Assembly: GCF_000150955.2 (NCBI RefSeq)
Contig: NC_011697.1
Coordinates: 121,876 to 167,262, forward strand
Direction: 5' to 3'
DNA length: 45,387 nucleotides
Source: Phaeodactylum tricornutum CCAP 1055/1
Taxonomy: Eukaryota; Bacillariophyta; Bacillariophyceae; Surirellales; Neidiaceae
Position numbers and translations under genes: made by a program. This document shows positions 2,903 to 21,530 of the stretch, in pieces; the stretch's first letter is position 1; each line of letters opens with the position of its first letter. The notes beneath the pieces are model-generated. The model was given only the letters and a program-made list of their open reading frames with translations. It had not been told where the DNA came from and did no database searches.

Positions 2903-5900
2903 ATGACTTCTGGGCAGACGAGTATGCCGGGAAAGGAAGAGGACGAAGAAGAATGGATCTTTACTTTGCGGATTCCTTCGTCCTCCGCCAAGGATGCTGC
3001 TGGCGGGGTCTACGAACTTAGTCAATCCCAGCCGCCACCGACCTTATCTACTCACGCTAGCAGTAGTGGTAGCTTCATGAACACCAACAATAGCAATGAT
3101 TCTGTTTCTGTAGACGAAACGGCTGAGCAAGAAGCCCTCTTGGTTGCGGGGGCTGCAACACAGCAGATAATTCGACCGCCTTCTCAGCACTCATCCGCGA
3201 ACCGTAACACCGACTGCGCTACCGATATCCCGTCTGGTTGGACTTGGCAAAGCCCTTATTGGAGTTTGCAGTCTGATGTTGTCCTGCAAGCGACTTACCG
3301 TCCGTATTGGCAAGCCCTGCCCGAGTTCACCAATTGTCGGGCCTGCCGAGCATCAGCCTACTGTCGGACTCGTTGTTGTCGGACGTGTACTGGAACGCGC
3401 GCTTTGGAGTTTTATACCACTGTTTGGACGACTCAGGATGTCGTGAATGTGGAGGTGGTAGAAGAATGTATTGAAGTCGCAGGGGTGGGCCCGTGTCGGG
3501 CTTTGCGAGTGCATTTGACACCGTTGGATACAGCCTGTTTGCCGGTCATTCCAGATGCATTGCAGAAAGCCTGGGAGGGCCACGTCCATAATATGCGCCA
3601 GGCCCACGATTCCAACCTTAGCAACAAAAATTCCTCCTCTCACACCGCAAGCAAGTCAGATACGGTCGCCGGTCCTACTATAATCTTTTGTTTGCCTACC
3701 AAACAAGTTGATCCCCCTTTATTATGGAAGGTAGAATTTGGTGGTGCTAGCAATATGTCACAAACGCCTATTGCTCTGGAAAATCTGACTGTTTTGGACG
3801 GGCAACTGCAGCAATTTAGGAACACCGTTCCCTCACCCACACATATTTACATTCACGGATATCAGTCTTGGTCTTTTGCCGGTTCTATTGTGAAAGGGCA
3901 AGATCAACCGCAGTCGGCCATGCCCGACTTTTTAAGTCGGGCCTTCAATTATGGCGGTTCGCCTCCACCCGTCTCCGACGATGTTCTTACGTACGTGCCA
4001 CCCTTGTCGCATAATCATATTCATCGCGACAACGACGGCGATGCCTACACGGGCCCGCAATCCTGGAAAACACATTACCAGTCCGACTTTTTTACTTGCG
4101 TCACGTCCGATGGAACGATTCCGTCGTTTTGGACATCACGTCGCGAAAAGCAATTTCCTTTTCAAGCTTTGGACGAGACAGGTGGACCCGGACTAGTATT
4201 GGGGTGGCTGTCACAACGCGAACAGTACGGCGTCATTATGGCCGATGTGGATTTAAGGCGGTATGCCATGCACGTTTCCGGGCACGGACAAATAATTTGG
4301 GGCCGTGGCTCTGGTTCGACAACCACAAATACCATTGCTCTAGAGACTGATTGGGCCTATGCACAACTGATCGCCCCACATTCATACGACGAAGAACCCA
4401 TGGTGCACTACCTCGAAGCAGCAGCGGGTTACAATCAAGCCCGACCGCTCCGCAACGGCTCGTTACTCACCGGGTGGTGCTCATGGTACCATTTTTACGA
4501 AAATATTACGGCCGGTACGCTAAGTGAAAACGTATCCAAACTAGCAGCTCTGAAGAACCGAGTCCCAACGAATGTGGTTGTAGTTGATGATGGGTATATG
4601 ACAGCTTGGGGCGACTGGGATTCAGTCAAACCCGGTGCCTTTCCGCAAGGCATGGCGGCTGTCGCTCGTGATATTGTTGCACAAGGTGGTATGCGCGCCG
4701 GATTGTGGTTGGCCCCGTACGCAGCCGACAAGCACTCTCGTTTGGTAAAAACCCATCCCGATTGGATTATTCGCAACGACTCTGGTATTCCGGCAAATTC
4801 ATCCAATTGTGGAAAGTTTTTTTACGGACTGGACGCCACCAATCCAGCTGTCCGGACCTATGTGTACGAATGCATCCGACGTGCGGTACACAGTTGGGGT
4901 TTCGACGTCCTTAAGATTGACTTCCTTTACGCCGCTTGTCTGGAAGGCAACGGTAAGCACGATTTGTCGCTGAGCCGGGCGCAGACGATGGATCTCGCCA
5001 TGCAAGCCATTCGAGATGCTGCAGGTCCCAATGTGTTTTTGATAGGCTGTGGTTGCCCAGTTGGATCTGGTATCGGCTACGTGGATGGCATGCGGGTTTC
5101 AGCTGATACAGGTCCAACTTGGTATCCCGCTTTACCGCTTCCGTGGTGGGATCATGGGACTCTACCTTGTTTGCGGTCAATGGTCCGTAACAGTATGAGC
5201 CGAGCACCGTTGGGACATCGATGGTGGCACAACGATCCGGATTGCTTGCTATTGGGTGAAAGCACCCGCCTTACGGACGAAGAAGTAGCGAGTGCGGCCT
5301 CGGTTGTGGCCATGACGTGCGGTATGATGCTTCTTTCAGATGATTTGACCAAGGTCAGCGTGGCGCGGACCAATATTTTGACCAAAATTTTCCCCATGAC
5401 TGGTGTTACGGCCGTTGTCTTAGATTTGCACAGTGCGAGTGACGGCTTGCCAAGTTTATTGCGACTCTGGTGTACGGACAAGTACGACTTGTTGGATTCG
5501 TTTCGTGAGCGTATGGTGGTGAGCGCGCAAGACCACAATGCGGAAGCGACTTACTTTGCGCGGCAGTCGTCATCGTATCATCCTGATAAGGACCAACAGC
5601 ATCCGATCGAACGCCAACGTAGCTGTATTCACGTGACAAAAGGTCTGGGAACGTGGACGGTTGTTTCGGTCAGTAATTGGTCCGATCGGACCGCTGTGGT
5701 TAACTTACCTCCTCCTGCTTTGTTACCTCCGCCCATGACTGGATGGGAGCAAGGCGATGAGGAGCCAGAATCATTTTTGCAGACTCCTGAAGAAGTTGAC
5801 TGTGAGCAGCACGGTTGCCACGCCTTTGGATTCTGGTCGTCCAAGTACACTTGGTTGCCCAACCAAAAATACAACGACAATGGGCAAGGCCCGGAACGAA

Positions 5901-6289
5901 TTCTTCGTCGAAAGCTAGTTGCTCACGAGACGGAAATCTATCATATTAAAGCCGTAACACCTGACGCAGCGCAATACGTTGGCAGTGATTTGCACTTTTC
6001 CTGCGGACACGAGGTCCTGTACTTTCGGGCACAGAAGAATCAAGTCAGTGTCACTCTCAAAACGAAATACCATCGTGTCGGGCACATTTTCCTTTTCCTC
6101 CCCTGTATTAATACGAATTCTGTCAAAGTGACTGTCAACGGAGAAGCTGGGCGATGGCATGCGGTAGGAAATGTACCGAACGGGCACGACAACGGACATG
6201 CCCAACTGATTGGACGAGTCTTCCGGGTGGCGGTCGTCGTGCACGCCAATGGCCGTCCACAAGATGGACAAGTCAAGGTTGAGTTTTAA
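2903..6289 (+). CDS. GH36 alpha-galactosidase / raffinose-synthase-like glycoside hydrolase
   Basis: 1128 residues, ATG in good context (AAAATG). The central (beta/alpha)8 barrel shows GH36/GH27 clan landmarks: GWCSWYHFYENI (~524-535), VVVDDGYM (~559-566), GLWLAPYAADKHS (~600-612), the nucleophile motif VLKIDFLYAA with Asp673, and the acid/base motif MRVSADTGPTW with Asp735. A beta-sandwich-like N-terminal domain (IYIHGYQSWSF ~315-325) precedes it and a beta-rich domain follows. The likely reaction is hydrolysis or transfer of alpha-linked galactose; raffinose-type sugars, galactosyl-glycerols or galactolipid head groups are possible substrates that the sequence does not separate. No signal peptide is visible, so it is probably cytosolic. 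The first ~100 residues are acidic and low-complexity. A Cys-dense patch at ~145-163 (NCRACRASAYCRTRCCRTC) is unusual for the family. The gene converges on the methyltransferase-like gene with a 71-bp gap. Confidence 0.88.
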   Translation: MTSGQTSMPGKEEDEEEWIFTLRIPSSSAKDAAGGVYELSQSQPPPTLSTHASSSGSFMNTNNSNDSVSVDETAEQEALLVAGAATQQIIRPPSQHSSANRNTDCATDIPSGWTWQSPYWSLQSDVVLQATYRPYWQALPEFTNCRACRASAYCRTRCCRTCTGTRALEFYTTVWTTQDVVNVEVVEECIEVAGVGPCRALRVHLTPLDTACLPVIPDALQKAWEGHVHNMRQAHDSNLSNKNSSSHTASKSDTVAGPTIIFCLPTKQVDPPLLWKVEFGGASNMSQTPIALENLTVLDGQLQQFRNTVPSPTHIYIHGYQSWSFAGSIVKGQDQPQSAMPDFLSRAFNYGGSPPPVSDDVLTYVPPLSHNHIHRDNDGDAYTGPQSWKTHYQSDFFTCVTSDGTIPSFWTSRREKQFPFQALDETGGPGLVLGWLSQREQYGVIMADVDLRRYAMHVSGHGQIIWGRGSGSTTTNTIALETDWAYAQLIAPHSYDEEPMVHYLEAAAGYNQARPLRNGSLLTGWCSWYHFYENITAGTLSENVSKLAALKNRVPTNVVVVDDGYMTAWGDWDSVKPGAFPQGMAAVARDIVAQGGMRAGLWLAPYAADKHSRLVKTHPDWIIRNDSGIPANSSNCGKFFYGLDATNPAVRTYVYECIRRAVHSWGFDVLKIDFLYAACLEGNGKHDLSLSRAQTMDLAMQAIRDAAGPNVFLIGCGCPVGSGIGYVDGMRVSADTGPTWYPALPLPWWDHGTLPCLRSMVRNSMSRAPLGHRWWHNDPDCLLLGESTRLTDEEVASAASVVAMTCGMMLLSDDLTKVSVARTNILTKIFPMTGVTAVVLDLHSASDGLPSLLRLWCTDKYDLLDSFRERMVVSAQDHNAEATYFARQSSSYHPDKDQQHPIERQRSCIHVTKGLGTWTVVSVSNWSDRTAVVNLPPPALLPPPMTGWEQGDEEPESFLQTPEEVDCEQHGCHAFGFWSSKYTWLPNQKYNDNGQGPERILRRKLVAHETEIYHIKAVTPDAAQYVGSDLHFSCGHEVLYFRAQKNQVSVTLKTKYHRVGHIFLFLPCINTNSVKVTVNGEAGRWHAVGNVPNGHDNGHAQLIGRVFRVAVVVHANGRPQDGQVKVEF

Positions 6290-6360: not shown

Positions 6361-7413
6361 TTACCTCTTATTTTGTGCAGTATATTTGTCCATTTTTCGC
6401 TTCTCGGCAATTAGGATGCGATTCATGGGAGTAATTTCGGAAGGGATACAGGCAAAGTCTACGTGATAGCCTTGCTCCGCCAACCAAAAAGAACGTCGGA
6501 GATCGGCCGCCCAGGCTACTCCGTGTGCCCGCTGAACGCCGTACGGTACCGTCTTGGCCATTCCGGTGTAACAGCAGGGCAAGACGGCAACGCTAGCAGC
6601 TTCGAGTGCTTCGGTTGCCAAATGTAGGACCTCGTCCGTCAAGCTGCCACAGGCGTGAGTGCCAATGACAGCAGTTGGTGCGTTCCGATCCCTACTGGTA
6701 CCCTTATCCCGCATAGAAGTCGCATATTCTTGTATTGGTTGCGCGTGGTATGTGACGCGATCTCGTATCCAGGGACAAACGTCCGTCATGAGGTCGCGTA
6801 GAACGGCGAAGGACGCCGGTTCTCGGGCATCCACAAGATTTACATGTAGACGTTGGAGACCGGGATTGCCTGCGGCAAAGAGTAGACCAGTCAAGCCGTG
6901 TCCCGCGCACGCATCGACGATCTGGAGCGGCGCCCCGATGCGTTTGCGAAGAGATAGGTAAAACTCCGTACTTTCCATCACTTCCTTGGCATCAATAGGC
7001 GCATTGTGGGCCACAAGCTGTTGCAAAATGGCGTTGAGGATCATTTGGGTACTAGGTCGTTCCGAAGCTACCAATGGCGGTGGCGATGTCACTGATGCGG
7101 ATCTGAAAGGCTTCCGGAGGAAGGGAAGATTGGTATCGTTTTCGGCGACGTACTGGGCGAGTCTCGTGCGAAGTGATACTTCCGAGGACGAATATCCGAT
7201 AGTCTTCGATGCTTTCAAGGGGCCTTTGAATGAAGGCGAAGAGACGTAGGATGTAGGATGATTCTGCTTGGCGGTATAGTCGGAGGTGTGGTGTCCCGAT
7301 ATGGAAACTTCCGGCAGTGGAGGCATGTCGGGCGCCCGCATCGCCAAACTTGATCCGATCGATAGATGCCCGATGCACAGAGCCCGCAGCACGAGTATTG
7401 CTAGCCTGATCAT
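6361..7413 (-). CDS. SAM-dependent methyltransferase-like protein (Methyltransf_32 type)
   Basis: 350 residues if started at the ATG at 7413. The frame stays open upstream to 7728 but that extension is Arg/Cys-rich and lacks family features. The 7413 start gives a hydrophobic leader (MIRLAILVLRALCIGHLSIG), suggesting secretory or plastid entry. The SAM-binding motif I is IVDACAGHGLTGLLFA (residues ~165-180), with an acidic motif II (LVDAREP ~193-199). A THACGSLTDEVLHL block (~252-265) and a double Cys (LPCCYTG ~278-284) resemble the H-x-C-G and C-C-Y/H features of METTL25/TRM13-type methyltransferases. Substrate unknown, with RNA or protein both possible. It lies tail-to-tail with the GH36 gene and 508 bp downstream of the SET fusion gene on the same strand. 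The family call is fairly safe; start and localisation are inferred. Confidence 0.68.
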   Translation of the reverse strand: MIRLAILVLRALCIGHLSIGSSLAMRAPDMPPLPEVSISGHHTSDYTAKQNHPTSYVSSPSFKGPLKASKTIGYSSSEVSLRTRLAQYVAENDTNLPFLRKPFRSASVTSPPPLVASERPSTQMILNAILQQLVAHNAPIDAKEVMESTEFYLSLRKRIGAPLQIVDACAGHGLTGLLFAAGNPGLQRLHVNLVDAREPASFAVLRDLMTDVCPWIRDRVTYHAQPIQEYATSMRDKGTSRDRNAPTAVIGTHACGSLTDEVLHLATEALEAASVAVLPCCYTGMAKTVPYGVQRAHGVAWAADLRRSFWLAEQGYHVDFACIPSEITPMNRILIAEKRKMDKYTAQNKR

Positions 7414-7921
7414 TTTGGAGGATCTTGTTTCATCCAGAAACCACGATTTTGTGGCGTTCATGAATGGTTCATGGTTGACTTGTTTGGGTTGATCGCGTGT
7501 CTCGAAAAATGAAGCAACACACAAATTTACCGGGACAACGTACTTTTCTGTACGCGTGTCTACACGAGTCACGTATTGACAAGAATGCCAAGGATCGGGT
7601 CGGTCGGTACCTGATACAGAACTAGAAGTGGAACGCAAGGAACAGCGATACAGTACCCCTGCCGCGGAGCACAATACTATCTTGACTAACCTAAAGCGAT
7701 GCCGTCTCTGTCCTCCCAGTCTTGTCAATCCTCCATAGCAGGTCGCTCACATTAAAATCCGGAGAAAGACATAATCTCGACCGGTCTACACAAGCCTTCG
7801 CAAGCGATACGAAGAACGGGCTGATGATGGGCTCTCCTAACGCTGTCGTGTAGACTGAATACTTGTCAGTAAACATAGTTCTATTGCTAAAAAGTTCTAG
7901 CTCCCTATGTCTCGTTCGTCT
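7414..7921 (-). other. Spacer between SET fusion gene and methyltransferase-like gene
   Basis: 508 bp. An open frame in phase with the methyltransferase crosses most of it, so part may be leader or an alternative N-terminus (to 7728). It should hold the 3' end of the SET fusion transcript and the methyltransferase promoter. No RNA gene or repeat is visible. Confidence 0.45.
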
Positions 7922-10900
7922 CTATGCTAAAAAGCATTGGAGCTCACTGTCATTTTTTTGCTTTTTGGCCGATCCGTTCCCCGCGAGCAAATCGTCCATG
8001 TCATACAAATCGTCTTCATCCCCTTCACCTTCCCAAGTGGCAGCCGTTATCATAGCCTGCTGCCTCTTCGAATCACGAGCCAAATCTGAAGTCCTACCGT
8101 TGGTTCCCATCTGAAGAATTCTTGCTTTTAAATTGACCCAGTCCTCCACGTAGCGTTGACGAAAAATTTGAGTAGTGCTCTGCTCAATAAAGTCAATCAT
8201 CCATTCGTGCCCCAGTGCTTCAGCCGCTGTACACCGCTGGCTTGGGTCCAAGTGTAGCATGCTGGCAATCAGATTGATAGCTTTGGTATGCGTTTCACCC
8301 TGATTCTTTAGCATGTGGCCAAGAGCTCGATCCACACCGCGTTTGTACATTTTAGCTGGTTTGAAATAGTAGGGAAACTTGGCTGCTTCCAGAAAGTTCT
8401 TTTTTGAAGGGGTTCCGACGATCTTGTACTGTGCAGTCAGCAACGATACCCGATCCTTGCCAACAAAGAGCGGTTTGCTTAAAAGCAGCTGCGCCAGAAG
8501 ACATCCTAGTGCCCAAATATCGCTCTCCATCGTGAATTTTGGGGATCCAAGTAAAATTTCCGGAGCAGCATAGGGGTTGGCGGAAACGTCCTCGTCGTCC
8601 TTTTTCCTATCGTCTTTTTTCTTCGACCTAGCAGCCTCGACCAAGTTGGGAGATTTATGCCGTTCGTTCACTGGAATCACGGTTCCTCGGTATAAGCCAC
8701 CAAGCTTGGCGACACCGCTTTGATCAACAATTATCTGATCCGCTTGAACAGTACGAATAACAAAATAATTGGAATGGCAATGGACAAATGCTGAGATAAG
8801 GTCGTGAAACCAAACCGCTAGAATTGCTGGACTGATAAATTGCTCCTCACTGGACTTGTACTTCCGCGAAAAGAAACGCTGAAGCACAAACGGGGTTGGA
8901 TGAAATACCAAATGTGGAAATCCTTTCACTTTCTTGTCTTTCTTAGCAGTTCTGTCATTCTCCTCGGTCGACCGAAAAAGGGAAAACATCGCATCATCCA
9001 ATGGAGAAGGCTCGAGGCTTGCGTTTTGTAATGGATTATCAATTGGGCTCTTCGGAGAGTGGTCCGAAGGCAACGCGATAGCTATTGGCAGAATGAAGTT
9101 CGGGTGACCATGTGATGACGGGACAAGGCTATGCAGATTGGTCAAAAGTTGCATCTCTTGTAGCGCGGACGCAGAAAAACCTGCTTTCATGGCTTTTCCC
9201 TTATATTTTTTTGCTTTCTCTTCTTCTTTGGCAGTAACTTTTTCTGATGGCCACCGCTGCAATGAGACAGCAACTGACACAAAGTCTTCGTTGCCCTCGC
9301 CTGCGGAACCTTTCGTCAATAGAGGAAAAGCACCCGAGGGGCCGACAAATGAGCTTGCGAGACGACCTAACGTTGTCAAGTTGTCTTCGCCACTAGAACG
9401 AATGGCCATCAAGTCGCATATTGAACCGGACAGGCTCGTCCCGTGGCTAGGTGGAATCCACCATCGTAGTCCCGAGCTTCGAAGCGCCGCCTTCGTGATC
9501 TTTCCAGCCACACAACATTTTCCACCCACGCGATGTCCGCTAGTTTTAGAGTCGTCTGGCTGAATAGTTCCCTCCCACCCCTGAGACGTCTGTATCTCAC
9601 AAGCCTGCAAAAGACCTGGATCGGCTTTGGCTTGAAGCTGACTAGCATCTTTCAAATCAGCAGATGCGTCAATGGATGAAGGAAGTTCACAAACAGTCTT
9701 TACGCTCTCTCTCACCAAATGCTCTGCGAGAGAAACTGCCCTCCAATGCCCTTCCATGACTATATCTTCTGTCCCTGGAGTAGCACCTGTCTCAATAAAA
9801 ATGCTGCACGTGCTCGTAGCGGCGATACCATCTACGGAAGGAAGAATGGCTTCGGCTATAAATTGGGTTGGAATGCTGCTCAGTTTGTATCGACACCGGC
9901 TTCGTTTGCTTATTATTCGATAGCGCTGAATATTTGCAGATCCAATACTGCCAGGGCCCGGTCTACGATTTGTTGCAAAAACCGTCATGGCTTCGACGCA
10001 GGACTTCTTGATCTCTGGTAGATACTGCTCCAATTGGTCCTTTCGACCTTCCAGAAGTGGATGGGACGGTGTCTTTTCCCCCGACGGACGCCCTAACTTG
10101 ATAGATTCCATTAGGAGTTCAGCAGCTTGCAAGACTTTCAATGGTATAAGACCTAGCACTGGTAACAAGTCACCGAGAGGGACCTTCATAAATGCGGCAG
10201 CTGCAGCGAACAGGTATTCAACACCATATTTTAACCACAGATCGGTCCCAGCGCTGAGAACTTGTCCACAGTAGGTAAAACTCATAATTCGTCTTGCCAA
10301 GCGTCGATCGATGGATGGTACAGCTGCGACAGCTTCGACGAGCCACTCAGTGGATGGGACAAATATGTCAAACTGAAGCGCATCGAGAATGTCCCTTTCT
10401 GCAGCTATTACACGCTCCTCTAAGACAAGTACCTCTTCCTTTTTTCGATCAAACTTGGTGCCTGGATAGAACGAACTGTATCCTGCTTCCAAAATGCTCT
10501 CCAATTTTTTCCACTTGACCGCTTTCTGGCATTTATTCGCCAAGAACACAGAAGCGAGCAACGCTTCTCGGGCTTTTAAGTGTGTACCTTCCCCAACGGT
10601 CACGAAGCGGTATAGAATAATCATGGCGTGTGCAGCAACTGCCTCATTCAGTCCTACAGTAGCAACAATTTCGGCGATCTCTGTGCCACAGTACGCTGCT
10701 GATTTGCTGTCGAGGTACCCAAACAAGCTTGAAGACTTCGTAAGCGTTCCTACGTCCCCTGCGGCGGCATAAACGTCAGCTGTGGATGCGGACAGACTAG
10801 CCAGTGTCCAATCACGGCCAAAAATCCAGTTTTGATTGCGAACAAAATTATCACGATACAATTCAATCTGCAGCCGTATGATTTCCTCCGCAAGATTAGC

Positions 10901-13399
10901 TCGTTGCTTGTCGGAAAAGGACTGGACCAAATCTGACAGTGTGGCAATCAGGGTGCCGTTGCTACCATCAATTCGTAGATGGTCTCCCGTCATGGGATCA
11001 ATACTGACGGAAGCTCCAGTTATACCTTTGACAAACTCAAAAAATTGTCCGTTGTTTTTAAGCATGAGGGGTTGGTAGATTCGGTTCGAACCCAGATACA
11101 GATAGTTGACACCTCGCTCCAGTTCCGTAGCTCGGGAGAGAATTTGCGCCCAGCGGGTCGATACTTCGGAAGGCTCACAGGCTAAATATAATGATCTACC
11201 GCCATTGCCTTGCGTATCGGTCAGATTGGACATACCAATACGTCCCATATCTTCCTCAGATTGAGTCCAAATGTTACAAGGGTAGGTAGCCTGAAAGCTT
11301 CGGAAAAAGCTGGATCTGGATAAATCTTCGTGTGACTCTTGGCGTAACCTATCTTTTGGCAGTGCTGCAGCTTTTGAGGAGTCAGCACTGGCGCTCCATC
11401 CCTGACTCAACAATTCGAATTGGTGGGGTGTGAGGACGCCTCCCAGTATCCCCAAATCCCGCGGCATTTTTTGTATCGTGACTGGAAGATTGGCTTCTCG
11501 ACAGCAATCCAGGAGCATTTTCCACACAACATCCCGGGCCACAGCCAAGTCAGATGGCAAGCATCCCTCTACAACGATACGCGAAAAGCTCTTACTTTTG
11601 CTATCCGACGGGGCGAAGCTGATGGTTACGCTTTTACATCTTTCCCGGACCCCTACCAGTTTGCGCTTGACCAGGTCGGCCACTCGTCGGGGATAGATCA
11701 TTTCGTCTGTTGCAACCGACGTGAGTGTACCTCCCGACATTGGGGTCGGTGATACGGATGCCGAGGTATTTTGCTGTTGCTGATGTTCCAGAGAAGACGT
11801 CACGTAGGCGACATTCTTTTCGAGAATACCATACGCCCTGTAGACGTTGGAACCCGTGATGGATACTTTCCAGACGGTTCCGTCGTGAGATCGATCCAAG
11901 GCCGCAAACATTTCCAGCTCTTCTGGAGATGAGGGTGGCAACGGGGGTCGGGCTACTTGATGGGCATTAATTTGGACCTGACAGTTGCGTTCACAGCGTT
12001 CGACTAGATGCTTGGCCCAGAGTCCTTCTTTGACGGGCGTTTGGACGTAGATATAATTTTTAATTGGTACGGGGGACTGGGTGGGTCCAAGTAAGCTGGA
12101 AGTTGCCGGTGCGGCAGTGGCAGACGCGCTCGTCGTGGATGGATGCGTAACTTTCTTGGCAATCATAAATTGATCCTGCAGTGTTGGTTCCTCTAGAACC
12201 ATCCAATCCGTTTTGGATAAGTCGACCCATACTTCACTGAGATCGTGCAAGAGCAAAATCTGGTGGGTTTGGTTCGAAGGGTCGTAGCCCGTCACCTCGG
12301 CTCGCTGAAACTTTTGTAATCCGCGGTCGTACACTTGGACCACTCGATTCACCAACGTTTGATCGTTCAATGTGCCGGATTTCCATTCACCGTCCGGTTC
12401 CATCATGGACGATGCCGCTATCGGTAATTCTTCTCCGTTCGTAGTGCCTGGTCCAGCGGCAGTTGCGTGTTTGGGGATGACTTCCAGCGTCCCTCGACAC
12501 GACGGCGTCCCACAGTAGCATTTGGTGGCGGCCCTTCCCCGTTGTCGTTCCCACTGATAATCAAACGTGAGTTCCGTACCGGCAGAGAGGCTGCGGGTCG
12601 GGACGACGACGGCACGTAGTACGCCCTTGACCTTCCAGCGCTGGACTTGGCAGTTGGGTTCACACGAGTGGTTAATATACCGAGCCAGACCTCCCTTCGA
12701 GCGTGCGTCGATGTAAATACCGTCTCCCAAACTCATAATGTACAACCGACGATCGTGTTGGTAACGTCGAAAGTACTTGGCGAGTTGTTTTTGGGGCACC
12801 GCGCGGCCGACGTATTCCAAAATCATATCCCCGACGTCGACGTCTTCTTCCACGACGAGTCCCCGGCCTTTGCGACCCGCTTCCACGACCCGGACCGTTC
12901 GGAACTCCCCGTTAGTGATACGGCGATTCCCGCAGAACATGTCGCCGGGACAGGTTTTGGGACACTCTTCTTGACAGCGCCGCAAGAGACAGGAATCGTC
13001 CAGACAGAGGCCGCGGCGTGGCGTGTAGAGCGTTGTCGACGAACTCGCCGTGGCGTGTTCCTTACGCGCCTGCTCGGATTCCAAAAAGTCAATGGAGAGT
13101 TCACAGCTGCAGGGTTCGACGCGCTGGGGCCGTGGTCGCGGGGCCAAGGACTGGTCCGTGTCGTAGCCGTCCTCGTGTTTGCCGAGACCCCATTCGACGC
13201 CGGTGAGGACGTCGAAATCGGCGTCGGCGGGTACCGTATTGGGAAGAGTCGTCGCGTTGGCCGTCGTCTTCGTATTAGGAATAGTAGTCGTACCAGCATC
13301 CGTACTAGCTATTTCCGTCGCCAGAGTCACAGTAATATCACCCGTCGCTAGTAGGGCGTCGGCAACCTCGTCGGGTACTTTCGGACCCCAGCGACTCAT
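7922..13399 (-). CDS. Fusion protein: AWS-SET-postSET methyltransferase, Tudor-like, KH-like repeats, cyclin fold and CDK-like pseudokinase
   Basis: One uninterrupted 1825-codon frame. Residues ~96-160 form a Cys-rich AWS module. The SET domain (~165-285) has intact catalytic landmarks (YINHSCEPNC ~241-250, ELTFDYQWE ~276-284), followed by a post-SET Cys cluster (CYCGTPSCRG ~294-303). This is the arrangement of SET2/NSD/ASH1-type histone H3K36 methyltransferases. A Tudor-like stretch follows (~345-403), then three KH-like segments (~445-535, ~570-635, ~765-830; the last includes KGITGASVSIDP). Residues ~895-1100 read as a cyclin fold of transcriptional L/K/T type. Residues ~1360-1740 match a CMGC kinase fold: APEILLGSPKFTMESDIWAL and LLSKPLF are conserved. 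The beta3 Lys, HRD (IRTVQADQ ~1548-1555) and DFG (KLGGLYRG ~1565-1572) are all replaced, so it is probably a pseudokinase. The start is the only ATG before the AWS module. Likely nuclear, acting in transcription-coupled chromatin methylation. SET and kinase folds are confident, cyclin good, KH and Tudor tentative. Confidence 0.87.
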   Translation of the reverse strand: MSRWGPKVPDEVADALLATGDITVTLATEIASTDAGTTTIPNTKTTANATTLPNTVPADADFDVLTGVEWGLGKHEDGYDTDQSLAPRPRPQRVEPCSCELSIDFLESEQARKEHATASSSTTLYTPRRGLCLDDSCLLRRCQEECPKTCPGDMFCGNRRITNGEFRTVRVVEAGRKGRGLVVEEDVDVGDMILEYVGRAVPQKQLAKYFRRYQHDRRLYIMSLGDGIYIDARSKGGLARYINHSCEPNCQVQRWKVKGVLRAVVVPTRSLSAGTELTFDYQWERQRGRAATKCYCGTPSCRGTLEVIPKHATAAGPGTTNGEELPIAASSMMEPDGEWKSGTLNDQTLVNRVVQVYDRGLQKFQRAEVTGYDPSNQTHQILLLHDLSEVWVDLSKTDWMVLEEPTLQDQFMIAKKVTHPSTTSASATAAPATSSLLGPTQSPVPIKNYIYVQTPVKEGLWAKHLVERCERNCQVQINAHQVARPPLPPSSPEELEMFAALDRSHDGTVWKVSITGSNVYRAYGILEKNVAYVTSSLEHQQQQNTSASVSPTPMSGGTLTSVATDEMIYPRRVADLVKRKLVGVRERCKSVTISFAPSDSKSKSFSRIVVEGCLPSDLAVARDVVWKMLLDCCREANLPVTIQKMPRDLGILGGVLTPHQFELLSQGWSASADSSKAAALPKDRLRQESHEDLSRSSFFRSFQATYPCNIWTQSEEDMGRIGMSNLTDTQGNGGRSLYLACEPSEVSTRWAQILSRATELERGVNYLYLGSNRIYQPLMLKNNGQFFEFVKGITGASVSIDPMTGDHLRIDGSNGTLIATLSDLVQSFSDKQRANLAEEIIRLQIELYRDNFVRNQNWIFGRDWTLASLSASTADVYAAAGDVGTLTKSSSLFGYLDSKSAAYCGTEIAEIVATVGLNEAVAAHAMIILYRFVTVGEGTHLKAREALLASVFLANKCQKAVKWKKLESILEAGYSSFYPGTKFDRKKEEVLVLEERVIAAERDILDALQFDIFVPSTEWLVEAVAAVPSIDRRLARRIMSFTYCGQVLSAGTDLWLKYGVEYLFAAAAAFMKVPLGDLLPVLGLIPLKVLQAAELLMESIKLGRPSGEKTPSHPLLEGRKDQLEQYLPEIKKSCVEAMTVFATNRRPGPGSIGSANIQRYRIISKRSRCRYKLSSIPTQFIAEAILPSVDGIAATSTCSIFIETGATPGTEDIVMEGHWRAVSLAEHLVRESVKTVCELPSSIDASADLKDASQLQAKADPGLLQACEIQTSQGWEGTIQPDDSKTSGHRVGGKCCVAGKITKAALRSSGLRWWIPPSHGTSLSGSICDLMAIRSSGEDNLTTLGRLASSFVGPSGAFPLLTKGSAGEGNEDFVSVAVSLQRWPSEKVTAKEEEKAKKYKGKAMKAGFSASALQEMQLLTNLHSLVPSSHGHPNFILPIAIALPSDHSPKSPIDNPLQNASLEPSPLDDAMFSLFRSTEENDRTAKKDKKVKGFPHLVFHPTPFVLQRFFSRKYKSSEEQFISPAILAVWFHDLISAFVHCHSNYFVIRTVQADQIIVDQSGVAKLGGLYRGTVIPVNERHKSPNLVEAARSKKKDDRKKDDEDVSANPYAAPEILLGSPKFTMESDIWALGCLLAQLLLSKPLFVGKDRVSLLTAQYKIVGTPSKKNFLEAAKFPYYFKPAKMYKRGVDRALGHMLKNQGETHTKAINLIASMLHLDPSQRCTAAEALGHEWMIDFIEQSTTQIFRQRYVEDWVNLKARILQMGTNGRTSDLARDSKRQQAMITAATWEGEGDEDDLYDMDDLLAGNGSAKKQKNDSELQCFLA

Positions 13400-14615
13400 G
13401 ACGAATTGTTCCAGGAACGGGAATCGAATCCAGACGGATGCGTGCGAACCAAGCTGTTCACGTAGACGTGTACGCTAGCTACCGGACGACGTTCGGAAAG
13501 CTACGGATGCGTTCGTGTGCGGATGAGTGTGTGTATATGTATATGTGTATGAACGGGCACCAACGGGTCGGTGGGCGACTCAGTTCCGTCAACGTTCCAA
13601 ACAGTCCCTGCGCGTACGACACCAGCAAGCACGCTACAGTGGAAGACGAACGAAAGATTGCCGAGCACACTACAGTCGCTCGACGCGAAAATCCAACGCG
13701 ACGGACGCAAAGCCGAGCGTTTAAGATTCCAAGGAGATTGGTGAAAGTGTCGATGGAATGGGTCTTTTTACTATCAATGCAATTACCGTGGGTGAATCAA
13801 GGATTGGATACAACGAACCTAACGACTCGACAGTGCAACGGGAAAAATCCCTCGCGGGCAATCCTTTCCACACCTGTGGTGCTGTACCCTACCCCTCTCT
13901 GCTAGAGCACCCCACAATTGGGAGTTTTCCCTGGAGGTACGGTATCCCTGGCGTCTGTGGATTCCAGATTACCAGAACTCGGTGGGTGTACTTTCCGTCG
14001 AAAATGTCTAGCAAGTTTCCGGCATGGAAACAAAGAGGTCGGCAGTTATTAATCCAGGTGCTTGTTTGTATATACACATACATATATGTAGGACTGTTCA
14101 AATGCTATCCACGCTACCGTAGATAACGTTGTATGTGATAGAACCAACTGTGCGACAAAACCAAACGAATTTGAATACATTAGAGCGTCCCTGATAATTT
14201 TGAACCGTGAGACTTTGTGAATGTGTCAACCAAAGTGTGGTTTCCCATAGCGAACCATCTCTACTCTCTTCCTGTCGAGGTGTGCCAACTACCCGTCAGC
14301 CACGGATCGGTCGGTAGGTAGGTACCATTGACGTTTCCCGTACGTGACCCTTCCGTTCCATCGTAGCTAGAGCCGACCATATCACGGGACTGTCTCGCCT
14401 TGAGAGAACTGGCCATCCTTCGTTTCCGTGGACCTTGCGCCGAACGAGAGCACTTCCGGGAACGACACTGGGCTCTGCGAGTCTGGACACGGAAACCCTT
14501 TGCGTACCAGAGAGCGTTACCGGTATCTCCTCTCTCTACCCGTACGTAGTATACGACGCATATCGATCCGTATACGTATCACACACACACGTACACGGAA
14601 ACGACGGCCTTCGTG
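13400..14615. other. Divergent intergenic region between SET fusion and coiled-coil genes
   Basis: 1.2 kb with no convincing gene. It must contain both promoters and 5' leaders. It shows TG/TA-rich microsatellite tracts (about 13527-13550 and 14066-14090) and a short CA run (14578-14590) just before the coiled-coil start codon. A TGACGT half-site sits at 14328-14333. No tRNA fold was found. Confidence 0.55.
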
Positions 14616-17600
14616 ATGGATCCTCCAGCCGTGGCTTCCGCGTCACTGTCGTTTTCGTCGACAGCCACTCCCGCTGAACAAGCCATTCCCTTGCCGACTT
14701 CGACCGAACGTAGCAACGACGCGGACTCGGAACGCAGCCACGACGTGTGGCCCGAAGATCTTTCCACCTTTGCCTTGGTCTCACCCCCCAAGCGCACGCC
14801 CCCACCGTACGATCGGACCCGTTCCGTGCCACCGGACACGAACACCACGCCCGTCCTCTCCACACACAATACCATGCCGTCCAGTGCCGAACCGGTCAAC
14901 TCCGTACACCACAATAGCGGTAGTCGGGCGTCCAAAGGCGACACGCCTTTGTCGGGATCGATGCTCACCCGCAAAGCACACAAGTTCTCCTCGCTCAAAA
15001 AGAAAAAGGGAGCCACCCAGCTCCTCAACAAGCTCTTTTGCAACACACCGTTGGCGATGAATGGCGACAACGACACTCACACGAACCCCGCTATGGACGC
15101 CTTTCAAGACCAAGTCGTGGAAATTTCTTCGTCACAGGAAGAAAACGTATCCCCGTTGGTCGCGCAGCGGTCTGGGCGCACGGGAGCTCACGGTCCGTCA
15201 GCCTCCACATTCAACGTGGAGGGTCTCCAATCCCCAACCGAACCTCTTATCGTCGAACCACCGCCGTCCTGGTCGCCAAACATGGCTTGTGAGAGCTTCC
15301 ACCAAGCTCTGGAGCGAGTGGCAGATACTCTAACACTCGACGACGAGTCTCAAGTCCGTCGGTCTGTTCAAGGCAACCTTCTAGCCTGTTCCGAGGTCTC
15401 TCAACAACAGACTTCACAGTCAGCCGCTGCAGTGCTATGTAATTCGTCGTCCTTGATTAGTGCTGTGGAAGACCAAGAAGAAAGTCATCAAATACAGGGG
15501 ACAGATGACGATCAGCAGGCGCCAGTGTTGCAGTCGAACGAGACCACTCCCAAGCCGAGTTTGCTAGCCAAATCCCAAAAGTTACGCAGTGACGGGACAG
15601 GCGCGCCCGTTCAGCTTCGCTCTTCTCCACTTCGATATTCCAACAGTGGTTTGTCCACGCCGTACCGCGATCTCCAATCTAAGCCCATGAAGACTCCGGG
15701 AGGCCTTGTCATTCCCACACCCTTTCTCAACAAGACCATGCATAACACATTCGAACACGGGTTTACCTGCCGCAAAGTGAACAAGAGTCCGATGCGCTCA
15801 CGAGAATCCAAGGGTTCCCCAAGCCCCGTCCGGTCCTGGGGGTGCCAAGATTACGGTAATTACACTAAAGCCAGTGAAACTGCTACCAGTTCCGTCTCGA
15901 GTCACGTTTCCGACGCGGTCGAACAAATGATGCGTCGCACTTGCTCGTCAGCGAGCGCACACAAGGATTCCGTATACGCCATGGTATCCTCCGCCGCTCA
16001 CGCCGTCACGGGAACCACCGGAATGGCTTCCCCCGAAACAACTATGACATCGGAGAGCAAGAGGGAAGGTAAACGACAATCCAGTCATCGACGACTGGGT
16101 CCAGATTTGGACACCCCAAGTTTGGCCGATGCTCTCAGTCATGACGATCAAAACACTATCAATTCCAAGCCGTCCGAGGAAGCGCGAGAGATCGCTATGG
16201 AACGGACTGTGGGTGTGGAACGCACGGAGCAAACATCGCCACAACTCTCCCGAGCTGGACAGGCGTCGAAAATGGACGAAGAAGACGACGACGCCTTTTT
16301 GCCGGACGATTTTAAGAATGAGAAGTCGAAAGCCGACGTTTCATCTCCGTCAACTACGAGCCACTACACAACAGCCGAGTTGGATCGGGTCGTAGCTGAG
16401 GCCGTGCGCAAGGCCAAATGGGAGTGGGAGTCCGCCAACCAAGACTTGACGCGCGTCGTCGAGGAAGCCAAAGTTGAATGGGAGCAAACAGAGCGAAGTC
16501 GTCTTCGGAAAGAAATTGAAGAGCACGAAGTCAAATTAGAATTGGCAATTTCCGAGTGTAAGTCCCAGGCCGAGACGCTCTTGGACGAACACGGCTTGCA
16601 GTGGAAGGCGGAGCACGAAGCTGAACTGGCTCAACTCAAATCGCGCTATGAACACAAAATTGGAGAGCACAAGGATAAGGCCGCCCTGGCCAATCGGCTT
16701 GTCAAGTTACGCAAAGACGAGGTGGAAACTCTCGAGAAGGAACTCGCAGACTTGCGAGAGCAACAATTGAGGGCATCTGAAGCACAACGTGAATGGGCAG
16801 AGTTTCAAAAGGAGCAGACAATTCTACAAGAAGAAAAGGATGCCGCATTGGAGCTTTCGACTGCCAAAATACAGCAATTGGAAGCGCAACTGGCAGCCAA
16901 TGAAAATGGGAGATCCAAAGTTCGAACACCATCCGGCTCATCTTCGACGCCCACCCGTGCTTCCACACCCAACCGTCGGTCCAGCGGCGGGAGTACCGCT
17001 TCGCCGTCCCGATCGGGAAGCCGTTTGTCGAAGCCCACATCACGGACGACACCCGTCAAGACTCCTCCGCGAGGGAGTTCTACACCTCAACGAACCTCCA
17101 GTGCAAACCGCGAGTTGCGAGAACGTGAGATGGAATCCCTCCGAAAGCAAATTACCGTGTTGGAAGAGCAAGCAGCCCACATGAGCTTAGAGCACGAAAA
17201 TGCGCTCAAAGAATTGAGGCAGTCCAGTGAGCAGGAGTTGTTTCGAGTCAAAGAGGAAATGGAAACACGGCTTGAATCGCAAATGGTGAAGGAGCGCGAA
17301 CTGAAGGAAACCTTATCGAATGTTAGTTCTCGCGATAAGGAGGAGCTACTCGAACGTATCGAGCAGCTGGAAGCCGAAAAGAAAGCTGATAGAAATGGTG
17401 GTCTTCGGGAAGTTCAAAAGAAGGAAGATCTTCTACAAAGGATTGCTTTGTTGGAAGATAAGGAGAAGCTCATGGTTGAGGATCACGAAAGGTCCATTCT
17501 TGAGGTGCGCACCGAAAATGAAAACGAAATACAGCGTCTCAAAATTGAAATCGAGAAGGAACAGAAAAATTTGATGGACCGTGAACACGATCTCGAATTG

Positions 17601-19181
17601 GCCATTACCGAAACCCAGTCATTCGAAAAAGAAGAGCTTTTGCAAGAGATCGAGTCGTTGAACGACAAAGTGAAGGCAGAACGCAATGGCAACGTTTTGG
17701 TCCATTTGAAGCTTACCGCGATCGAGAAGGAACTCACTGCAGCGCAGGAGGCTCATCAAGCGGAGATGGAGGAGCTGCACCGCGAGAGTCGTGCCAAACT
17801 TTCCAAGCTAGAATCTGACTACTTAAGCGTATCAGAGTTGAAGACGTCTTTGGATAAGGCACAGTCGGAGAAGGAACAGTTACGAAGTGAAATTGAAACG
17901 ATCAAAGCAAACATTGAGCTCGAACGCTGTGAGCGCCACACCAAGCTAGACTCCCTTCGCAAGCAGCAAGCCAAGGAACTGAACCGTGTTCAAACAGAAG
18001 CATCTGCCGTGTTGGAGAAGTCCATATCTGAATCGAAAGAGCGCGTCATGTGTGTTCAAAAAGAGTACGAAGACCGGATAGAGCAGCTGCGCGAGGAAGT
18101 AATCGGTAAGGAAACCGAAATGGAAAACGCGGCGCGGGTAGAACACAGCAAAATGCGAGATCAAATTGAACAGCTTGTGAAACAGGTTGAAGAGTCCGCT
18201 TCAATCGAGACAGGTCTCCGCCAGCGACTTACGATACTCGAAGATTCGGTAAAACAACCATCGGAGGAAATTCTTACATTACAAGCTGAAATTGCTCAGC
18301 TCGAGGAGAAGGCGAACTCCGAGAAGAATAGGTACGAAAACCGTATCAAAGAAGTCCAGGAAAATCACTCGAGAGAGCTCGACGAATTGCTTCAGCAGCT
18401 TGACCTCGTTGAGGCTGAACAGAAAGAACGCCTTTCCGCCGCTGATAAGGCTGCTGCAGAGAAAGACGCGATCATAGCTGCTCTGGGAAGCCAACTGGCA
18501 GATACCAGTACACGAGCTAAGGCCTTTGAGGAGAACGAGGAAGGTCTGATCCAAGAGGTTCAACGGCTCAAAGAGGAAGCGAAGCAGTCCCATGCGGAAT
18601 TCAGTCAGCTCCAAAAGGAGCATACCCGTGTCAAGAGCGAGCATGATTCTTACCGTAAGCAGGCCGACGAAATCAAAGAGCAAGCTTGCGACGAGGCTCG
18701 CGAAGAAATGATTACTCGAGCAGAGAGCCAATTTAAGCAAGCCAACGACCTGTATATTAAATTGAAGAAGAAATTCGATGTTTCCAATGCCAAAGTTGAC
18801 AAGCTGGAGTCGGATCTGAAGGAAACAATGTTTTCGTTAAACACGGCGAAGAAGGAGAAGGAAGAATTCGAGATGGATTGGAAAGCTGAGATTGCGCAAT
18901 TGAAAGCAGCAAATGCAAAGGTTGAAGCAGACGCAGCAACCAAGGCCAAAGAATATCGAAAAGAAATGGAAGGCCTCCTAAAAGCCGCGGCTGAATTCGA
19001 ACAGAAGGCCAAGAGTACGGAATCTACCAGCAGATCCATCCAATCGACACTGGCGTCCGTTCTTGGCGAAAAGAAAAAGTTCGAAGATCAGTATATTACT
19101 CTACTGAAAGAACACGACGAACTTAAGCAAGTATGTGAAGAGCTCATGGCTGAGCTGGAAGGGCAGCAAAACGAATGTTAG
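14616..19181 (+). CDS. Very long coiled-coil protein, function unknown
   Basis: 1521 residues from the ATG at 14616; the frame also has a GTG codon immediately before it. Residues 1 to ~580 are Ser/Thr/Pro-rich and probably disordered, with many S/T-P sites (for example PMKTPGGLVIPTPF around 358-371) that look like targets of proline-directed kinases. From ~585 to the C-terminus the protein is almost continuous heptad-type coiled coil rich in Glu, Lys, Leu and Gln. A basic Ser/Thr/Pro/Arg patch (~768-832, with TPNRRSS and TTPVKTPPRG) interrupts it; patches like this often bind microtubules or carry phospho-control. No enzymatic domain or membrane segment is visible. By composition it resembles centrosomal, kinetochore or golgin-type scaffolds, but no family can be named. 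It converges on the TFIIB-like gene with an 81-bp gap. Confidence 0.82.
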   Translation: MDPPAVASASLSFSSTATPAEQAIPLPTSTERSNDADSERSHDVWPEDLSTFALVSPPKRTPPPYDRTRSVPPDTNTTPVLSTHNTMPSSAEPVNSVHHNSGSRASKGDTPLSGSMLTRKAHKFSSLKKKKGATQLLNKLFCNTPLAMNGDNDTHTNPAMDAFQDQVVEISSSQEENVSPLVAQRSGRTGAHGPSASTFNVEGLQSPTEPLIVEPPPSWSPNMACESFHQALERVADTLTLDDESQVRRSVQGNLLACSEVSQQQTSQSAAAVLCNSSSLISAVEDQEESHQIQGTDDDQQAPVLQSNETTPKPSLLAKSQKLRSDGTGAPVQLRSSPLRYSNSGLSTPYRDLQSKPMKTPGGLVIPTPFLNKTMHNTFEHGFTCRKVNKSPMRSRESKGSPSPVRSWGCQDYGNYTKASETATSSVSSHVSDAVEQMMRRTCSSASAHKDSVYAMVSSAAHAVTGTTGMASPETTMTSESKREGKRQSSHRRLGPDLDTPSLADALSHDDQNTINSKPSEEAREIAMERTVGVERTEQTSPQLSRAGQASKMDEEDDDAFLPDDFKNEKSKADVSSPSTTSHYTTAELDRVVAEAVRKAKWEWESANQDLTRVVEEAKVEWEQTERSRLRKEIEEHEVKLELAISECKSQAETLLDEHGLQWKAEHEAELAQLKSRYEHKIGEHKDKAALANRLVKLRKDEVETLEKELADLREQQLRASEAQREWAEFQKEQTILQEEKDAALELSTAKIQQLEAQLAANENGRSKVRTPSGSSSTPTRASTPNRRSSGGSTASPSRSGSRLSKPTSRTTPVKTPPRGSSTPQRTSSANRELREREMESLRKQITVLEEQAAHMSLEHENALKELRQSSEQELFRVKEEMETRLESQMVKERELKETLSNVSSRDKEELLERIEQLEAEKKADRNGGLREVQKKEDLLQRIALLEDKEKLMVEDHERSILEVRTENENEIQRLKIEIEKEQKNLMDREHDLELAITETQSFEKEELLQEIESLNDKVKAERNGNVLVHLKLTAIEKELTAAQEAHQAEMEELHRESRAKLSKLESDYLSVSELKTSLDKAQSEKEQLRSEIETIKANIELERCERHTKLDSLRKQQAKELNRVQTEASAVLEKSISESKERVMCVQKEYEDRIEQLREEVIGKETEMENAARVEHSKMRDQIEQLVKQVEESASIETGLRQRLTILEDSVKQPSEEILTLQAEIAQLEEKANSEKNRYENRIKEVQENHSRELDELLQQLDLVEAEQKERLSAADKAAAEKDAIIAALGSQLADTSTRAKAFEENEEGLIQEVQRLKEEAKQSHAEFSQLQKEHTRVKSEHDSYRKQADEIKEQACDEAREEMITRAESQFKQANDLYIKLKKKFDVSNAKVDKLESDLKETMFSLNTAKKEKEEFEMDWKAEIAQLKAANAKVEADAATKAKEYRKEMEGLLKAAAEFEQKAKSTESTSRSIQSTLASVLGEKKKFEDQYITLLKEHDELKQVCEELMAELEGQQNEC

Positions 19182-19262: not shown

Positions 19263-21530
19263 CTATGAATCAACAGCCTGCGCTTTGGCTTGTAACCAAG
19301 GTTTGCGCTTCATTTGCTGCAATCGCTGTCTCGACGCTTCTTCCCGTCTCTCTTTGAGCTTTTTTGCTTCCTGTCGGCCAACAACACCGCGTAATTCTCT
19401 ATGAATTGCTTCGCCTGCTACCGGATCCTTTAACACGGACCCCAACTTTTTCGCTGTTTTGAGAATGAGAACTTGCCCGGCTGTTCGTCCACTTGAAATC
19501 GCTGCTTGACCTGATCCACCAACACCGCCCTTCCCTCCCGAGCCTCGTTCGTGGGAATGCTGCCATCGAATGCCCAGCTTGGACATATCCTGAACCCGAG
19601 GAGTTACTAGGCGCTTGGATCCCGTGTCTACAGTGTTGCGGCGTTGTAGTTCCTGCTCCAAATGTTCACACAGAACAATGGAGTGTTCCACCAAACCGCC
19701 TTCTAGCTCTTCCAAGCTGCCCTGTGGAACGATTTTGGCCGCGGCAGCATTCGTAGCCTTTTCCCGTTCCTGAACCCACTGCTGAGCTATACTGCGGGAG
19801 GCCTCTAGCAACCAAGACCTGCAGTCTTCCAAATCCCACGTGGCGGCGGGCTTCTCAACGGCTACGGATGATGGTATCTCGGCTGCTTTTGTGGGTTCCA
19901 CATTGGAAAAATCTAGCAACAAACCGCCTTTGCCTGCTAGCGTGGCATGATGCAATTCATTGCGTCGTGTGGCGCGTTTGGACTGCTTCATTGCCGCTTG
20001 TTGTCGTTCACGCTCTTCGGCAACTTCTGGAGAAATCTCGTCAGCTTGTTGTTTCAAAATTTTCTGTCCTTGCGAACTAAGCTGTTCAAAGGCTTCGCAG
20101 AGGCATGCCGCAATGACGGGTTTAAACTGTTGAACGAGTTCACGGTCGTCACGAAAGCCGGCAAACAATTCCTTGGCCCGCTGAACGACGGCTTCGTGCA
20201 GATTCAAGGCATCCCCCACGTGGGTCATTTGCAAAAACGCGTCTTTCTTTTGCTTGTCCTTATAGCCGACACGCGTCCGCCGGTCCGTTTTGCCGAATTG
20301 CGAAACGTTGAGTTCGGTATACGCGTGAGCGTTGCGGAGAATGGTTTCGAGATTTTTCTTCCCAGCGCCCCCACCCGCCACGCCGTTGGCCCCCCAGCCG
20401 GCCCCGCCCGCACCGGTCGTTTGCGTCAGACCACCGAGTGTCGTACTTAGATTGTGCGCGTTGGAGTATAATGGATTGGCCATATCCCCGTGATGATTCC
20501 GGTCCACTTCCCCTTCAAATTTGCGAAATTGTGATCCTTCGTGCATGAGCGATTCCGAGACGACCGTACCACAGACTTGACAAATCACGTCGCCATTCTT
20601 ACGATCGAGGATGAAATTCGCCTGATCGTTGTTACCGCAGGTTGGACAGCGTTTGAACTTTTCCACGTCGTGCACTTGTGACGAGTTGCCCGTGGCCAGT
20701 GTCGGGTCCGTATCGTCCTCGTTCACGTGCATGCCCTTGCCGAGAATGACGGTTTCGTAAATGCGCTTGCGGACCGTTTGGAATTCGGCGCGCGTCAAAT
20801 CGGGCGCCAGCATATGCTGTATCCGGAGCGGAGTGGTGGTCAGAATATCTCCGTGTACCCTTACTTGCAGTGCGCGGTACAACGGGAGTGCCATGTTCCG
20901 ATACAAATCAATCAGGGACAAGTTGCTCGCCGTGGGCATGAGTGCGGGATCGAGTTTCGCCAATTTGGACGCCAGTGGCGTGGGTTGGTCCAGGAGTGGC
21001 GGATTCTGGGCAAGACCAGCGAGACCGTTGACGAGACCGCCCAAACTCAACTGCGCCAACTTTCCACCCAGAGTCGTGGGAATCTCGTCTTGTTCATCCT
21101 GGTTCCATTCCACCGGGTCGAGATGTCGCTGCTCGGACGTCAAAACGTGTATCCAGACGTGGTACGGATCGTGGAGTAGAAACCGTTGACGTTTACGTTT
21201 CTTGAACTTCCGGTCCTCCTCCTCTTCGTCGTCTGCTGTCGTCAATTCTTGCGGGACAATCCTCAGGGCGTCAAAGGCGGTCAAAAGATTCTTCCACAAG
21301 ACGGTGGCGACGGCGGCTAACTGTATCGATGGATTGCTCGAGTGTGGGTCGGATGTATCATCTGCGTGAGAGACGTGGGGCCACAGGACCCCGCGTTCCT
21401 TCATCCACGCTTCGACGGCATCGGCGTTTAATTCCCATAGCGGCGTTTCGGACGGTTTTAACGCCAACGCGGCACTCGACACGGTTGCCGCCGCGGCTGC
21501 GGCCGCCGCCGTATTCGTGGTCGTACTCAT
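19263..21530 (-). CDS. TFIIB-like transcription factor with zinc ribbon and one recognisable cyclin-like repeat
   Basis: 755 residues from the ATG at 21530 (MSTTTNTAAAA); the frame extends to 21650 but adds only a Cys/Arg-rich tail. A TFIIB-type zinc ribbon is clear: CPTCGN (C295, C298) and CQVCGTVVSE (C317, C320), followed by EGSQFRKFEGE, as in B-reader regions. A segment at ~434-485 (THVGDALNLHEAVVQRAKEL, then PVIAACLCEAFEQL) matches the first cyclin repeat of TFIIB. The second repeat is missing or very diverged. Instead there is a long charged region and a Lys/Arg-rich C-terminus. About 290 residues precede the ribbon (KKRKRQRFLLHDPYHVW), unlike canonical TFIIB, where it is near the N-terminus. 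It probably acts in the nucleus in Pol I, II or III initiation; a Rrn7/TAF1B-like or Brf-like role is possible. Gly-rich stretches look disordered. Confidence 0.72.
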   Translation of the reverse strand: MSTTTNTAAAAAAAATVSSAALALKPSETPLWELNADAVEAWMKERGVLWPHVSHADDTSDPHSSNPSIQLAAVATVLWKNLLTAFDALRIVPQELTTADDEEEEDRKFKKRKRQRFLLHDPYHVWIHVLTSEQRHLDPVEWNQDEQDEIPTTLGGKLAQLSLGGLVNGLAGLAQNPPLLDQPTPLASKLAKLDPALMPTASNLSLIDLYRNMALPLYRALQVRVHGDILTTTPLRIQHMLAPDLTRAEFQTVRKRIYETVILGKGMHVNEDDTDPTLATGNSSQVHDVEKFKRCPTCGNNDQANFILDRKNGDVICQVCGTVVSESLMHEGSQFRKFEGEVDRNHHGDMANPLYSNAHNLSTTLGGLTQTTGAGGAGWGANGVAGGGAGKKNLETILRNAHAYTELNVSQFGKTDRRTRVGYKDKQKKDAFLQMTHVGDALNLHEAVVQRAKELFAGFRDDRELVQQFKPVIAACLCEAFEQLSSQGQKILKQQADEISPEVAEERERQQAAMKQSKRATRRNELHHATLAGKGGLLLDFSNVEPTKAAEIPSSVAVEKPAATWDLEDCRSWLLEASRSIAQQWVQEREKATNAAAAKIVPQGSLEELEGGLVEHSIVLCEHLEQELQRRNTVDTGSKRLVTPRVQDMSKLGIRWQHSHERGSGGKGGVGGSGQAAISSGRTAGQVLILKTAKKLGSVLKDPVAGEAIHRELRGVVGRQEAKKLKERREEASRQRLQQMKRKPWLQAKAQAVDS

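Follow-up and report, generated by a model that had tools for sequence, protein, structure and literature searches.

A single polypeptide of Phaeodactylum tricornutum predicted to combine a SETD2-like SET domain with a cyclin box and a CDK-like pseudokinase

The CTD kinase and Set2 of yeast and animals come together via phosphorylated Pol II. CTDK-I or CDK12-cyclin K and Set2 are separate chains in this pathway, and the kinase is active. A locus of the diatom Phaeodactylum tricornutum appears to place comparable parts on one chain, and the question it raises is whether such a fusion is real and what it might do. The window (the whole stretch of DNA analysed, 45,387 nucleotides) maps to C29:121876-167262 of the 27,450,724-base, 88-contig genome; feature coordinates below are window positions. 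The analysis indicated that the fusion is real and unusual, its parts being separate proteins in better-studied organisms.

The reading frame and its surroundings

The fusion protein is encoded by a single ORF at 7922..13399 on the minus strand (1825 aa), which is open for 1825 codons from an ATG start, has its sole stop at the end and is preceded by an in-frame stop upstream. The coding signal was monitored with a codon-preference score, for which 11 other open frames of the window served as the training set. This frame ranked top of the six in 23 of the 24 intervals of 75 codons that were scored (the last 25 codons were left out); in the one exception, residues 151-225, it and a reverse frame were almost level (0.07 versus 0.09). 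No GTARGT donor was found inside the frame; of the weaker GTRAG type, five sites have an acceptor in phase. The 1825 open codons, the coding signal and the absence of a GTARGT donor make a join of two genes unlikely. The single frame of 1825 codons proposed in the earlier note is thus real, with no internal stop and a coding signal almost throughout.

When Pfam was run on the whole protein, it returned Pkinase, SET, Cyclin_N (below cut-off) and a second kinase model (below cut-off). Profile searches on the translation, which the earlier note had put forward as a check, therefore recovered the SET, cyclin and kinase parts, while the AWS and KH profiles gave no match. The core of the proposal stands: one chain carries a SET domain resembling that of SETD2, together with a cyclin box and a CDK-like pseudokinase. 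Two weak Pfam matches at residues 420-576 (at most 11.6 bits versus cut-offs of 22 and 25) were dismissed, and four NCBIfam matches, all to bacterial proteins and far below the cut-offs, were dismissed as family names.

Several neighbouring frames of the window were also surveyed. At lower window coordinates lie a Melibiase-like glycosidase (2903-6289, plus strand) and a Methyltransf_32 protein (6361-7728, minus strand). On the other side, the plus-strand frames at 14613-19181 (1522 codons) and 22323-27848 (1841 codons) had no Pfam match at E<=0.001, and residues 334-378 of a 795-codon frame at 19263-21650 (minus strand) match a TFIIB-type zinc ribbon.

The SET domain and the genome's separate SET, cyclin and kinase proteins

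On the basis of Pfam SET and an alignment with SETD2, a Cys-rich (AWS-like), SET and post-SET region was assigned to residues 95-310 (12470..13117, minus strand). The SET domain proper occupies residues 178-282 (12554-12868, minus strand) and scored 67.9 bits in the whole fusion protein, the Pfam cut-off being 22.4. The motifs NHSCEPNC (at 243) and FDYQ (at 279) and the post-SET CxCx4C (C294, C296 and C301) are all present, so that most of the claimed AWS-SET-postSET array was confirmed. The AWS part is less firm: the Pfam AWS profile left the fusion locus unreported and had its single genome match elsewhere (in L004, below), and the SETD2 alignment begins at residue 132, within the Cys-rich stretch.

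The best solved relatives of the fusion SET domain were SETD2 (137.9 bits), ASH1L (120 bits) and NSD2 (115.2 bits), SETD2 leading ASH1L by 18 and NSD2 by 23 bits. Scores under those of ASH1L and NSD2 were obtained for two chains that we take to be fungal Set2, 6nzo (104.3 bits) and 9wms (98.4 bits); it is therefore SETD2, and not these chains, that carries the assignment to the Set2 class. Of the 51 SET matches in the genome, the fusion SET domain and L004 were the two compared with solved structures. For the L004 SET domain the order was NSD2 (136.1 bits), SETD2 (123.2 bits) and ASH1L (123.1 bits). Since SETD2 comes first for the fusion SET and NSD2 for L004, the fusion protein is by score the more SETD2-like of the two. 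Taken together, the diatom protein resembles SETD2/Set2 in its closest solved relative, both SET motifs and the post-SET cysteines, whereas it lacks a Pfam AWS match and an SRI match and adds the cyclin and pseudokinase parts. For SRI, no Pfam match was obtained in the fusion protein or in nine fragments of it, and none in the genome at E<=1 in a search run without a positive control.

L004 (also L037; G000:C1:2502108-2502656, minus strand) is a second Cys-rich SET protein, NSD2-like by score, and the start of its frame is Cys/His-rich and looks PHD-like by eye. It is a putative alternative source of H3K36 methylation. Elsewhere in the genome, three SET matches at G000:C4:499842-501923 (plus strand), each with an open frame of 1230 codons, are probably one protein.

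The genome also encodes a standalone cyclin K-like protein, L023, which is closest to cyclin K (110 bits), and a standalone kinase, L040, which scored best with CDK13 (237.7 bits) and CDK12 (232.7 bits), followed by CDK9 (217.9 bits), and keeps both HRD and DFG. By these scores, L040 and L023 look like an ordinary CDK12-cyclin K pair; the cyclin of the fusion is far more divergent than L023. Because L023, L040 and L004 exist separately in the genome, the fusion is, as judged from these predicted proteins, an addition to separate cyclin K-like, CDK12/13-like and NSD2-like SET proteins.

Cyclin, pseudokinase and middle region of the fusion protein

Cyclin box 1 (Cyclin_N) was located at residues 908-1012 (10364..10678, minus strand). 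Its Pfam score varied from 20 bits in the whole protein (cut-off 23) to 24 bits as a 260-aa fragment and 24.9 bits in the genome search. With two profiles it reached 15.4 and 21.9 bits, which none of 500 shuffles equalled in either case. For the region of cyclin box 2, the outcome depended on the profile, 6 or 143 of 500 shuffles being equal or better. The cyclin fold claimed for this part is thus upheld for one box, weak in score and unmatched by 500 shuffles, and is profile-dependent for the other. Lys956 and Glu1001, both invariant in the cyclin alignment, are kept; we take their positions to be the CDK-contacting pair of cyclins. All PDB matches at E<=5 were to cyclin T1, in 11 distinct sequences with a best E of 0.014, and the best relative among 52 frames of the genome was the cyclin K-like L023 (E 0.013). 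These matches do not allow the fusion cyclin to be placed specifically in the cyclin K/L class.

The kinase part matched Pfam Pkinase with 68 bits in its C-lobe only, at residues 1517-1734 (8198..8851, minus strand; profile positions 90-263). Against a profile of five P. tricornutum kinases the C-lobe scored 88.2 bits, and none of 500 shuffles was as good. In an alignment with six kinases of the genome, the catalytic loop is lost within residues 1546-1558 (8726..8764, minus strand), where HRDLKxxN is replaced by IRTVQADQ, that is, HRD by IRT and the catalytic Asn by Gln. The DFG region at residues 1564-1572 (8684..8710, minus strand) reads AKLGGLYRG, with GGL at the DFG position. APE, DxW and the presumed alpha-C Glu are kept in the same alignment. 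As HRD and DFG are destroyed, this part is a pseudokinase, predicted to be catalytically dead, in agreement with the earlier note; retention of APE and DxW together with loss of HRD and DFG is as expected of a scaffold.

The presumed N-lobe pieces (9155..9274, minus strand) were read by eye from the alignment. They include VAVS for VAxK (residue 1376), a Ser replacing the VAIK-position Lys in this weak region, and a PSTAIRE-like SASALQE with Glu1415. In the presumed N-lobe region, 16 of 500 shuffles were equal or better. Hence the proposed CMGC kinase fold holds for a CDK-like C-lobe and is presumptive for the N-lobe. A specific placement in the CDK9/11/12/13 class is likewise not possible, the C-lobe scoring nearly equally with the CDC2 homologue (1v0o), FUS3, PHO85, CDK1 and CDK12. 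In view of these near-equal scores and of the cyclin matches given above, a finer class for the kinase or the cyclin is unjustified.

The region between the SET domain and the cyclin box had been read as a Tudor-like part and three KH-like parts. The former is without support, with no Pfam Tudor match in residues 310-419. For KH, Pfam gave no match in the whole fusion protein or in the nine fragments, and none of the genome's 23 KH_1 matches lies within the fusion gene. A KH profile built from 19 of these 23 matches (four partial or weak ones were dropped) scored 1.0 bit on the fusion protein; 12 of 500 shuffles reached this value, and the top shuffle scored 7.0. Five KH-like blocks on the minus strand were compared by hhalign with 200 shuffles each. 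A weak signal was obtained for residues 690-765 (11105..11332; score 17.3, no shuffle as good) and for the post-cyclin residues 1158-1238 (9686..9928; 15.2, no shuffle as good). The other three are unproven, namely residues 447-541 (11777..12061; 12.5, with 13 shuffles equal or better), 565-640 (11480..11707; 10.2, 21 shuffles) and 764-836 (10892..11110; 12.5, 10 shuffles). These scores of 10-17 compare with 40-79 for the 19 real KH domains in a leave-one-out comparison, and a profile of the five blocks matched KH with a probability of 0.3 of 100.

A sliding hhalign KH scan gave a mean of 11.8 and a maximum of 17.5 over 25 windows of the middle and post-cyclin regions, a mean of 8.5 over 47 windows of the rest of the fusion protein and a mean of 8.6 over 251 windows of control proteins, one of which reached 16.2; the block limits and window classes were picked by eye after the KH claim had been made, which favours a signal. 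An RRM decoy profile gave 9.1, 9.6 and 8.9, with no comparable excess. KH as an established domain was therefore rejected, for want of any profile match and with scores far below those of real KH domains. The three KH-like parts originally described are unproven, the KH-specific excess being weak, and degenerate KH-like repeats in the middle region are possible.

Known relatives and competing explanations

The statement in the earlier note that no protein with this order had been described needs correction. In the part of PMC3019232 (2010) available to us, Phytophthora infestans PITG_14137 and its orthologues in P. ramorum and P. sojae are reported as an N-terminal histone-lysine methyltransferase fused to an inactive CDK-like kinase. 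The order, methyltransferase and then inactive CDK-like kinase, is like that of the diatom protein; compared by description, the difference is the cyclin box, which the diatom protein has and which that part of PMC3019232 does not mention for PITG_14137. The diatom protein is probably a more complete version of a fusion that has been noted once already, in Phytophthora. Since the same source states that species other than the three Phytophthora are without the methyltransferase/kinase fusion, orthology with the Phytophthora protein can only be presumed. Beyond this remark, no SET-cyclin-kinase protein was found among the open-access papers listed. The available text of PMC3019232 further describes four CDK-cyclin fusions in oomycetes, ciliates and Theileria, none having been found in P. 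tricornutum. As described there, they share with the diatom protein a CDK-like kinase and a cyclin on one chain and an altered catalytic loop; they differ in their order, with the kinase preceding a C-terminal cyclin, in the nature of the change, Asp to Asn, and in that no methyltransferase is mentioned.

Other reports touch on the locus less directly. The sections of PMC10421102 at hand name PtSETD2 (Phatr3_EG02211) as the putative H3K36 enzyme of P. tricornutum, by which either the fusion gene or L004 may be meant, and describe motifs IV-VII in SETD2 homologues of polar centric and some raphid pennate diatoms. A multifunctional 'Cyclin, N-terminal' protein of P. sojae and both diatoms (P. 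tricornutum 48208) appears in the excerpt of PMC2705460 and is not equated here with the fusion gene. The main text of PMC2872877 on diatom cyclins, as far as it was available, does not mention 'SET domain', and PMC7784034, likewise in part, refers to many Ectocarpus methyltransferases with novel domain structures.

No orthologue was found when the full fusion protein was searched against prokaryotic genome contigs. The SET alignment yielded 361 confirmed stretches in these contigs, and among the best 80 of them there was no match to the fusion protein beyond residue 335. Viral contigs searched with the full protein and with the SET, kinase and cyclin alignments gave none. The collections searched were those of prokaryotes and viruses; therefore, absence from them says nothing about other stramenopiles. 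One of the best 80 SET stretches, L079 (CALZFZ010000029.1), is about 46% identical over residues 143-306 and comes from a MAG labelled Muriicola, in which it is a short SET protein beside frames of 743 and 530 codons on a contig of 5,099 bases. The contig is probably eukaryotic, within a bacterial MAG. Its SET frame ends just after the post-SET region, and thus no fusion is seen there.

The explanation we favour, at a probability of roughly 0.4, is that the protein is a Set2-class H3K36 methyltransferase in which a cyclin box and a dead CDK-like domain would serve as a C-terminal targeting part in place of SRI. The SET domain itself would methylate H3K36. The cyclin box may pack in cis against the pseudokinase, in the manner of a cyclin on a CDK. 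The pair could dock the enzyme on elongating Pol II or on its kinases and so take over the part played by the SRI domain in Set2/SETD2 of yeast and human, and RNA or DNA contact may be contributed by the middle region. Since AlphaFold models made without an alignment for residues 885-1760 and 335-890 had a mean pLDDT of 35, packing in cis is something we infer, and cyclin box 2 and the kinase N-lobe, the main cyclin-CDK contact surfaces, score within the shuffle range (6 or 143 of 500 and 16 of 500, respectively). The 'hard-wiring' of methylation, RNA contact and cyclin/kinase scaffolding suggested in the earlier note would be plausible.

A Pol II tail is presumably encoded at G000:C20:605235-605755 (minus strand), where 25 YSPTSP units in tandem, at 21-base spacing, have the appearance of the largest-subunit CTD. 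Genome-wide, this shorter YSPTSP pattern matched 49 times (15 forward and 34 reverse, versus 11 and 4 for the controls), 25 of the matches being in that one run; a strict two-unit tail pattern, in which position 7 had to be a Ser-type codon, had no match in the genome. The run and the H3K36me3 that the available part of PMC10421102 reports mainly in promoters and genes of P. tricornutum fit a co-transcriptional enzyme.

Alternatively, the cyclin box might bind an active CDK in trans, which would bring a kinase to chromatin or allow phospho-regulation and would leave the dead kinase as a decoy or spacer. The retained Lys956 and Glu1001 and the presence in the genome of L040, intact in HRD and DFG and closest to CDK13/CDK12, speak for such a partner; however, the standalone L023 is the one expected for an L040-type kinase, and the divergence of the fusion cyclin makes the idea rather unlikely. 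Pseudokinases can serve as regulatory partners, HER3 being the example given in PMC3019232. The cyclin/pseudokinase part could thus fold back on the SET domain and regulate it, through autoinhibition or allosterically, and play no part in targeting to Pol II; we consider this unlikely.

The idea that the cyclin and kinase parts have lost their function and are in decay would agree with the lost catalytic residues and the weak cyclin score. Nevertheless, a frame open over 1825 codons, a C-lobe whose remainder, away from the active site, reaches 88 bits with the five-kinase profile, and the motifs IV-VII common to some diatom SETD2 homologues in the available part of PMC10421102 (whose correspondence to the cyclin and kinase parts is only possible) render it quite improbable. 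An artefact of the gene model, with at least two transcripts or an intron separating the parts, is very improbable indeed: the frame has no internal stop, ranks first in 23 of 24 intervals and holds no GTARGT donor, and the order of methyltransferase and then inactive kinase recurs in Phytophthora according to the portion of PMC3019232 at hand.

Extended beyond this diatom, the favoured targeting explanation would become a stramenopile-wide single chain of Set2, cyclin and dead CDK, whose built-in docking unit, possibly with degenerate KH repeats, would target co-transcriptional H3K36 methylation and take the place of an SRI domain that reads the phosphorylated tail of Pol II; we advance this wider form as doubtful. 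If true, a chain that naturally joins a Set2-type enzyme to a cyclin and a dead CDK would offer a rare 'Rosetta stone' of the CTD kinase/Set2 pathway, and it would suggest a kinase-independent placing of H3K36 methylation in a diatom that is amenable to gene knockouts.
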